Shown here one piece after another: positions 34,744-37,126 of a stretch of 46,870 nt of DNA. A model generated the notes under the pieces. It made no database searches, was not told the origin of the DNA, and worked only from the letters and a program-made list of their open reading frames with translations. Where the stretch lies: the NCBI GenBank assembly GCA_944326675.1, contig CALVET010000054.1, positions 1 to 46,870 of the forward strand, written 5' to 3'. The stretch is from Candidatus Gastranaerophilales bacterium. GTDB taxonomy: Bacteria > Cyanobacteriota > Vampirovibrionia > Gastranaerophilales > Gastranaerophilaceae. The position numbers and the translations under genes are program-made. Position 1 is the stretch's first letter; every line of letters starts with the position of its first letter.

Positions 34744-35674
34744 TTTTCTTTTTTAAATTAATTTCTTTTAATTGTTCATATAAACGGTATTCCTCTGAGG
34801 TTATTTTAGAAGGTATTTGAATTAATATTTTTACTATTTCATCTCCTTTTTTGTTTGTTTTTTCATTTAAAATACCGACATCAATCAGTTTAAAGCTTTG
34901 GTTTGTTTTTGTCAAAGGCGGAATTTTAATTATTGCTTCTCCCCAAAGAGTCGGAACAGTTATGTTTCCTCCTAAAATTGCCATATAGGGACTAATATAG
35001 GCGTTATAATAGACTGTGCCGTTTTCTATTTTTAAATCTTTTTCATTAATAATATTGACAACTACGTATAAATTGCCGTTTTTCCCTCCGTTTCTGCCTT
35101 TTTGTCCTTCTTCTTTAAGTCTTAATTTTGATTTATTTTTGATGGACGGAGGAATTTTTACGGTAATTTTTTTGTTTTCGGTTTTTTCTCCTAAGCCGTT
35201 GCAGTAAGGACATTTTTGTCCGTTGGCAAATTTGTGTCCTTCGCATTTGGGACAGATTGTTGAATGTGCGATATTTATCGTTCTTGTGGTGCCTAAAATT
35301 GCTTCTTGATAATTGATTTCAACATTAACGGTTATGTCTTTGCCGTTAATAATTTCTTTTTTCTTTTCTTTGGGTTTTTCTTTTTTAGAAAATAAATCCG
35401 AAAAAGTATAATTTGAAGAAGCATAGTTTTTATAAACTTTTTGAGATTTATATATTTCCTTATTTACGTTTCTTAAGGCGTCATAGTTTTTTCTTTTTTC
35501 ATCGTCCAAAAGAATTTGTGCTGCTTTATTTATTTGTTTAAATATTTCTTCTGCTTCAAAAGATGAATTAATATCAGGATGATACATTTTAGCCAATTTT
35601 TTAAATTGTTTTTTTATTTCGTCTTTTGTGGCGTCAGGGGTTAAATTTAAAATTTCATAGTAACTTTTTAACAT
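34727..35674 (-). CDS. DnaJ-like co-chaperone with a single zinc site
   Basis: J-domain proteins stimulate DnaK's ATPase and deliver clients. The J domain spans residues 1-68, with H32-P33-D34. The glycine-rich linker is poor; residues 70-110 are Lys/Ser-rich instead. The zinc region has only two of DnaJ's four CXXCXGXG motifs, C141/C144 and C155/C158, so one zinc site. The C-terminal peptide-binding domains follow (about 165-305), with KVPP-like KIPPSIKNKSKLRLKEEG. At 315 aa it is shorter than DnaJ (about 375), close to CbpA length, but CbpA has no zinc. GGTGA precedes the ATG. The queE gene overlaps its end by 17 bases. Confidence 0.9.
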   Translation of the reverse strand: MLKSYYEILNLTPDATKDEIKKQFKKLAKMYHPDINSSFEAEEIFKQINKAAQILLDDEKRKNYDALRNVNKEIYKSQKVYKNYASSNYTFSDLFSKKEKPKEKKKEIINGKDITVNVEINYQEAILGTTRTINIAHSTICPKCEGHKFANGQKCPYCNGLGEKTENKKITVKIPPSIKNKSKLRLKEEGQKGRNGGKNGNLYVVVNIINEKDLKIENGTVYYNAYISPYMAILGGNITVPTLWGEAIIKIPPLTKTNQSFKLIDVGILNEKTNKKGDEIVKILIQIPSKITSEEYRLYEQLKEINLKKKNAKYI

Positions 35675-35784
35675 ATTTCACCAAATTTATATATTAATTT
35701 AATGATTATTTTAAAAAAATCCAATATCAACTTTGATAGGAAAAATGTGCAAAAAATTTTTTTTAGGAGCATTATTAAATTGGA

Positions 35785-36504
35785 ATGAAAAATTTAAACG
35801 AAGCAGTGGATAAGATAATTACTCGTCTCGGAACATCAAATGATTCCGAGATTTGTACGGCTGCTTTGGCTGCTTTTAAGCTTATTTTTATTCCTTTTGC
35901 AACAATGTCTGATAAAAAATCAACTAAAGAACAAAAAAATTATGCTCTGACGAGAGATTTTTTAACTGAAGGAGTTGCTCTATTGGGTTATATCGGAATA
36001 ACAAGGGTTGTAAAGAATAATTTATCAGCTCCTATTTGCGCAAAATATTATAAAGACAAAGCGTTCGGTTTATTAAAAGAAAATAAACTTGATATTAATA
36101 GTGAAGATTATAAAATCTTATCTAATATTGATAAAGTTGCAATAAAAAATCACGCTATGAATGAATTTTTGGAAGAGGGTGCTAAAAAGTATACAAAAAA
36201 CCAAGAGCAATACATTAAAAAGCTTGAAGGCATAGTTGCTAAGTTTCCGATTTTGCAAAATCCGAAAGATTTATATTTAAATACTAAGAAAACTATTTCT
36301 CATGTGTCTGTTTGTTTATTGGCATTAACTTTAATTCCTTATATTACAAATAAATTAATTTATGTTCTATCTAAAGTTAAATCTCAAGATAATAAACCTG
36401 CAGTTTTAAATAAAGCATCAACGCAAACTACTTTAAAGCCTTATACTATGACTCAATACATGGATAAAACAAGAATGGGAGTGTTAAATGTCTTTAATCG
36501 TTAA
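35785..36504 (+). CDS. Unknown membrane-associated protein A of a paralogous pair, 239 aa
   Basis: No family recognised. The start ATG is followed by a short helix and then a hydrophobic part (residues about 25-65) containing IFIPFATMSDKKSTKEQKNY and a membrane-like stretch EGVALLGYIGITRVV. A middle segment (90-155) is charged and helical. A second hydrophobic segment lies near 175-195 (VSVCLLALTLIPYITNKL). The last 30 residues are polar. The block D-K-K-S-T-K-E-Q-K-N-Y-A-L-T-R-D-x-L matches D-K-T-A-T-L-E-E-R-K-Y-S-A-T-K-E-L-L in the next gene. AGGAG lies 15 bases before the ATG, rather far. The end overlaps the second gene by 17 bases. Confidence 0.75.
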   Translation: MKNLNEAVDKIITRLGTSNDSEICTAALAAFKLIFIPFATMSDKKSTKEQKNYALTRDFLTEGVALLGYIGITRVVKNNLSAPICAKYYKDKAFGLLKENKLDINSEDYKILSNIDKVAIKNHAMNEFLEEGAKKYTKNQEQYIKKLEGIVAKFPILQNPKDLYLNTKKTISHVSVCLLALTLIPYITNKLIYVLSKVKSQDNKPAVLNKASTQTTLKPYTMTQYMDKTRMGVLNVFNR

Positions 36505-36991
36505 TTTTTTAACTAATCCTGCTGCTGCTGATTTTGTTCAAAATTCTACCTGTCAAGTTTTATCCGAAGGCTGTCTTAAGGCTGTTGGAAGACCTACTTT
36601 TACTTTGCTGGATAAAACAGCTACATTGGAAGAAAGAAAATACTCTGCTACAAAAGAATTATTATATCAATCTTTTTCCATGGCAGCATTTTTTGCTTTG
36701 ATTTTTCCGATTAAGAAAAACACGTTCAGATTATTAAAGTTTTTTCCTCAATTAAAAGATTGCGATGTTATAAATGCAAAAACAATAAAAGAATATCAGG
36801 AAAAATTGAAACAAGTAACCGATAAAAAAATGTTAACAAAAATAAAAGGTGCAAATGAATTGATGTCAATAATTGCATCAGGTATAATTTTAGCGGTTAT
36901 TACCCCCCAAATAGTTACAAGACTTGTTCATCCTATTATGAATAAATTAAGCGATGACGGGCAGAAAAATAAATTAGATAAAAAAGCGTAA
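36488..36991 (+). CDS. Unknown membrane-associated protein B of a paralogous pair, 167 aa
   Basis: No family recognised. It overlaps gene A by 17 bases. The layout repeats gene A in shorter form: a short start, a block FTLLDKTATLEERKYSATKE (residues about 38-57), a hydrophobic segment (QSFSMAAFFALIFPI), a charged middle and a second hydrophobic segment (ELMSIIASGIILAVITPQIV) ending TRLVHPIMNKL. Gene A ends its second helix with ITNKLIYVL in the same position. The two are probably diverged duplicates that form a membrane complex. The next feature downstream is tRNA-Arg, 23 bases after the stop. Function unknown. Confidence 0.75.
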   Translation: MSLIVNFLTNPAAADFVQNSTCQVLSEGCLKAVGRPTFTLLDKTATLEERKYSATKELLYQSFSMAAFFALIFPIKKNTFRLLKFFPQLKDCDVINAKTIKEYQEKLKQVTDKKMLTKIKGANELMSIIASGIILAVITPQIVTRLVHPIMNKLSDDGQKNKLDKKA

Positions 36992-37014
36992 ATTTGATAG
37001 AATTAATGTATTAT

Positions 37015-37088
37015 GCGCCCATAGCTTAATCGAATAAAGCATTGGTCTCCGAAGCCAAAGACTGTGGGTTTGAATCCCATTGGGCGTA
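37015..37088 (+). tRNA. tRNA-Arg (anticodon CCG)
   Basis: The whole cloverleaf can be drawn: acceptor 37015-37021 with 37081-37087 (one G-U), D stem 37024-37027 with 37037-37040, anticodon stem 37042-37046 with 37054-37058, anticodon CCG at 37049-37051, five-base variable loop, T stem 37064-37068 with 37076-37080, discriminator A at 37088. CCA is not encoded. It reads CGG codons. A20 and the A discriminator fit arginine identity. The D loop has G18 then A19, and the T loop has U at position 56 where C is nearly universal. Confidence 0.93.
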
Positions 37089-37101
37089 TTTATATAATAA
37101 A

Positions 37102-37126
37102 AAACCTCTTAATAATTAAGAGGTTT
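37102..37126 (+). terminator. Terminator after tRNA-Arg
   Basis: An 11-bp stem, AAACCTCTTAA (37102-37112) with TTAAGAGGTTT (37116-37126), and a three-base loop. The T run is weak after it, but it lies 14 bases past the tRNA. Confidence 0.75.

Follow-up and report, generated by a model that had tools for sequence, protein, structure and literature searches.

What do two adjacent, overlapping genes of a Candidatus Gastranaerophilales bacterium encode, and do their products act together? The Gastranaerophilales are common gut bacteria, non-photosynthetic relatives of the cyanobacteria ("Melainabacteria"), for which there is almost no genetics. The window, that is, the whole stretch of 46,870 nucleotides analysed here, is contig C54 of an incomplete genome of 1.7 Mb.

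Two overlapping genes of common origin

A preliminary description of this DNA had reported two genes, hereafter referred to as A and B, that overlap by 17 bases. The open reading frames confirm this, and place both genes on the + strand, as listed below.

35675..35784: divergent intergenic region of 110 bases, between a DnaJ-like gene (- strand) and A
35765..35769, + strand: AGGAG, possible Shine-Dalgarno sequence of A, with a long spacing of 15
35785..36504, + strand: gene A, 239 amino acids (open reading frame, family, AlphaFold2 model); helix 21–42, a DK..T.E.K.YA.TRD loop, long helix 48–99, a charged, genus-specific middle, helix 160–199 and a tail
36477..36481, + strand: GGGAG, probable Shine-Dalgarno sequence of B, within the end of A and 6 bases 5' of the B start
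36488..36991, + strand: gene B, 167 amino acids (open reading frame, alignment A5, AlphaFold2 model); layout as in A, with invariant RP, D, K-Y-x-A-x-KE-x-x-YQ, G..E and P...HP
36488..36504, + strand: A/B overlap of 17 bases, the two genes being in different frames
37014–37089, same strand as B: tRNA-Arg (CCG), ∼22 bases past the end of B

Shine-Dalgarno sites comparable to the GGGAG of B are present in many A-B pairs. Upstream of A, a single promoter-like match is found on the + strand (35668–35695), which is not above chance. Upstream of A, the neighbouring genes in the window encode a DnaJ-like protein, a radical SAM protein and a decarboxylase; downstream of B lie the tRNA-Arg(CCG) gene, gcvPB and queA. 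The tRNA gene is followed by a hairpin (37102–37126).

The two genes had also been proposed to be a duplicated pair, on the basis of a shared D-K-x-x-T-x-E motif. This motif is present letter for letter in both proteins, as DKKSTKEQKNYALTRDFL in A and DKTATLEERKYSATKELL in B. Direct comparison of the two by BLASTP is weak (24% over 114 amino acids, E 0.012, for this one comparison), and the score of their alignment was reached by 1 of 2000 shuffles of B. Profile-profile comparison, to which the preliminary description had pointed as a check, did find similarity, at E ∼1e-14 (7e-15 to 1e-13 with relatives included, probability 98%, over ∼135–150 columns). When each A was compared to its own B, the score was above the 95th percentile of shuffles in all of the 186 pairs described below. 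In a phylogenetic tree, A and B form two clades with a support of 0.97, with which 185 of the 186 pairs are consistent. The proposed duplication is thus supported by both the profile comparison and the tree, and on this sequence evidence A and B can be regarded as true paralogues.

Conservation and spread of the pair

In a scan of genome contigs, B is directly preceded by A in 80/80 loci. Over all loci, 186 distinct A-B pairs were gathered, and every typical B has an A immediately upstream. The gap between the two genes is −4 (an ATGA overlap) in 103 of these pairs and, apart from two pairs with gaps of 66 and 129, lies between −34 and +4; the overlap of 17 bases occurs in 10, and those shown belong to the genus of the window. 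Eight members are unpaired, namely two A genes (L120 and L274, whose B reaches the edge of the stretch or contig), four divergent single-gene relatives (L028, L049, L052 and L059) and two fused proteins (L018 and L053). Among the loci gathered, no typical A or B was found away from its partner.

The profile built from B proteins (A3) matches 163 of the 286 genomes of the order, and most of the relatives that carry a name come from Candidatus Gastranaerophilales metagenome-assembled genomes. Outside the order, a single match is listed for the samples of the class and the phylum, in G342, a genome from another family of the class, and here too A lies directly 5' of B, with an ATGA overlap (L172). 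The pair is near-absent outside the order. Since the tree separates A from B, the duplication must have occurred before the family spread, and the two clades together with the pair of G342 show a single old duplication, followed by obligate retention in tandem, with conserved order and overlap. A sugar-kinase-like gene adjoins the G342 pair (L172:1236–2533), and one also follows the pair of G035 (L026). Searches of IMG/VR, GenBank phages and PLSDB plasmids yielded no relatives.

Within the genus of the window, the pair is present in 11 of 28 genomes, and in one of these, G004, B is broken across two frames (G004:C1:90970–91460; L042, L061) while A is intact; this reflects either gene decay or an assembly error. 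Both observations show the pair to be dispensable, and many members of the order can do without the complex that it would form. Where it is present, both genes are under purifying selection, B most strongly: compared to the two nearest species, dN/dS is ∼0.03 for B and 0.08–0.17 for A, and compared to two more distant species it is 0.14–0.30, with synonymous sites near saturation.

Predicted structure and comparison with known families

AlphaFold2 models were obtained with moderate confidence for A (74 sequences; pLDDT 78, pTM 0.60; helices 21–42, 48–99 and 160–199) and for B (81 sequences; pLDDT 81, pTM 0.64; helices 20–40, 47–77 and 113–158). Both models possess the same topology of three long helices, with a variable charged region between helices 2 and 3. 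The layout described previously, a hydrophobic segment, a charged middle and a second hydrophobic segment, holds, to which a helix preceding the DK motif (helix 1) can be added. In A, helix 1 is hydrophobic, whereas that of B is amphipathic and does not clearly span the membrane; as the hydrophobic stretches are short and contain conserved charges, helix 1 may lie on the membrane instead of crossing it.

The invariant residues gather where helix 1 turns into helix 2, in the first part of helix 2, and in helix 3. For the first two places, these are R35, P36, D42, K56, E57, Y60 and Q61 in B, and P37, T40, M41, K51, Y53, R57, T61 and E62 in A; for helix 3, they are P140, H148 and P149 in B, and P185 in A. 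The C-terminal GMKVGG of A is also conserved, but overlaps the ribosome-binding site of B, with GGA or GGT as its first glycine codon in 123 of 148 sequences. Its conservation can therefore not be credited to the protein alone, and it was rejected as a protein signal. Across the family, the K+R bias is positive for A in 94% of pairs and negative for B in 96%, a contrast that is confounded with the greater length of B's middle loop. The window's own pair does not show it (∼16 versus 18 in A, and 12 versus 13 in B).

The preliminary description had assigned the pair to no known family, and this is supported by the searches: no relative above background was found in Pfam, NCBIfam, PHROGs, PADLOC, PDB sequences or PDB folds, nor any strong hit to a characterised family in these databases. 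Among the PADLOC models of anti-phage defence, the best match was JetB1, which aligned along a charged stretch with E 0.02 and 11.9 bits, and A had none. Literature searches returned no description of the A-B pair. The top structural matches, BAR-domain and VirB5/VirB6-like helical bundles, share only long helices with the models, and their best Z scores (6.4–6.8, with an rmsd of ∼5–11 Å) are under the level that the tool considers meaningful for helical models.

Paired small membrane transporters and channels that are heterodimers of paralogues are known, such as EbrAB/YkkCD of the SMR family and the two-gene CrcB/Fluc. Like A and B, they are encoded by two small, adjacent, paralogous membrane genes, and the A-B family average has an opposite charge bias, which is confounded with loop length and not seen in the pair of the window. 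However, no similarity in sequence or fold was found to either: the Pfam Multi_Drug_Res profile matches neither protein of the window (P0001 and P0002) nor any of the 155 aligned family members, the CRCB profile gave no match, and A and B are longer, with large charged middles. The claim that the locus encodes an undescribed system is fair only in the sense that the protein family is undescribed; the A and B proteins are new, while their arrangement, as paralogous subunits from overlapping genes, is of a known kind.

Possible roles of the pair

Two functional readings are suggested by the neighbouring genes. In 74/80 loci, an operon encoding an anti-sigma-like protein, an ECF sigma factor and an LTXXQ (CpxP-like) protein is found divergent from the pair, within three genes upstream, with Sigma70_r2/r4 and LTXXQ identified by Pfam. 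This would fit a sigma-controlled membrane-repair pair, belonging to an envelope-stress regulon, but such a role is improbable. The linkage is part of a larger syntenic block, in which trmFO lies downstream of the pair in 60/80 loci (trmFO and the anti-sigma role were named from the sequences, with no profile above its cut-off). In G034, G032 and G043 the pair and the anti-sigma gene are on different contigs, G038, G040 and G045 have anti-sigma genes without the pair, and the genome of the window has the pair but gave no anti-sigma match. As the two units are on split contigs or occur alone in these genomes, the sigma linkage, strong as it is locally, is explained by local synteny only. In loci L062–L141 (e.g. 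L062:7847–9299), the anti-sigma-like protein of the operon is short, with one helix and a C-terminal EDYGFPVDSYGLIMV motif; its gene is widespread in the order, independently of the pair. A link to the flagellum, to which the genes for FlgD, FlgE and FliK located 3–8 kb upstream in the window could point, as could FlgD on the same contig within ∼8 kb or less in several members of the genus, is contradicted by co-occurrence: G028, G033 and G034 possess the pair and no FlgD, and many members of the genus possess FlgD and no pair. I consider this link highly implausible.

The question that remains is whether A and B act together or separately. They could be co-expressed paralogues with related roles, forming two homo-oligomers or acting as monomers, the overlap between their genes merely reflecting a compact genome. 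Overlapping genes are indeed common in small AT-rich genomes, and the divergent relatives L049, L052 and L059 are single genes. The coevolution signal between A and B, which bears on this question, is weak: couplings between the two proteins exceed those of 8/8 restricted permutations, and two of the top ten join equivalent positions (A K32–B K31 and A I187–B I142), but with ∼95 effective sequences, and permuted pairings that keep part of the equivalent-position signal, it is suggestive only. Against separate action, the gene order of the pair is retained in different families of the class, and in several genomic contexts, while the neighbours change, and typical A or B genes were not encountered unlinked. 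Separate action is rather unlikely. I regard it as reasonably probable that A and B form an obligate hetero-oligomer in the cytoplasmic membrane, with their translation coupled. The preliminary description had suggested that the pair makes a membrane complex, and this is the best reading of the 186 tandem pairs, the overlapping frames and the common helix topology, although the complex itself remains inferred. It is also favoured by the ribosome-binding site of B within A and by the purifying selection on both genes, and more weakly by the couplings between the two proteins and the opposite K+R bias of the family averages.

In the mechanism that I propose, the one duplication took place in a single-module ancestor, before the families of the order split, and its products A and B would be the two subunits of the obligate hetero-oligomer, most simply in a 1:1 ratio. 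The overlap would couple their translation on one mRNA, and with B's ribosome-binding site located in the last part of A, the two chains would be made together, in a fixed ratio, and assemble during insertion. Each subunit would contribute a short helix, two membrane helices of greater length and, lying at the surface of the membrane, a charged turn (RP...DK......K-Y-A..(R/K)E), with the conserved turn likely serving as a functional or docking site. Membrane insertion, the heterodimer and co-translational assembly are inferred here from genes and models; more tentatively, the A and B chains might have opposite (antiparallel) orientations.

A further family of the order is related to the pair. 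It consists of fused, two-module proteins of ∼340 amino acids (range ∼300–380; L302–L331 and others), termed FxG, is undescribed, and was detected in 183 of 192 genomes from the order; the member in the genome of the window is 569 amino acids long (contig C21, L332:1393–3102). Its first half is homologous to A (hhalign E 1.9e-7) and to B (E 3.4e-7) over the whole module, while column-shuffled controls gave a probability below 1%. Profile comparison detected no likeness of the second half to A or B, and the family is therefore not a simple A-B fusion. It shares the order with A and B, but comprises one chain with a second module, where A and B have a single module each. An F-x-G motif precedes the modules, at the N-terminus in 18/30 sequences and in the middle in 29/30. 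In G044, G047 and G039, each half of the FxG profile matches a stretch of its own, the two lying side by side and apparently forming separate open reading frames. Proteins of 640–720 amino acids (c6), assigned to no family and usually encoded shortly downstream of the pair and trmFO (e.g. L066:12833–14965 and L068:12932–14863), also have F-x-G motifs, at the N-terminus in 36/56 and in the middle in 56/56, but their homology to a double A/B module was not supported by profile comparison. N-terminal F-x-G enrichment in neighbouring proteins was not significant (7 clusters versus 4.7 expected).

The homology of the first FxG half to A and B shows that this module works beside a second helical module in one chain. 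A and B thus belong, each with a single module, to a wider lineage-specific superfamily of membrane proteins. A bolder version, in which the pair forms the centre of a membrane machine found only in the Vampirovibrionia, is unlikely; in it, A and B would be an antiparallel pair with a new fold, perhaps forming a membrane structure particular to the class, and belonging to a larger, lineage-specific superfamily of "RP-DK-KYA" membrane modules, which also occur fused and with F-x-G linkers.

For the Gastranaerophilales, this analysis adds a conserved, uncharacterised protein family, together with a testable prediction, namely that A and B form one complex. If their opposite orientation is true, the pair would be another case of paralogous subunits into which a dual-topology ancestor has been divided. 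Since 95% of the genomes sampled from the order carry the fused relative, the answer for this pair may also inform on a near-universal protein.
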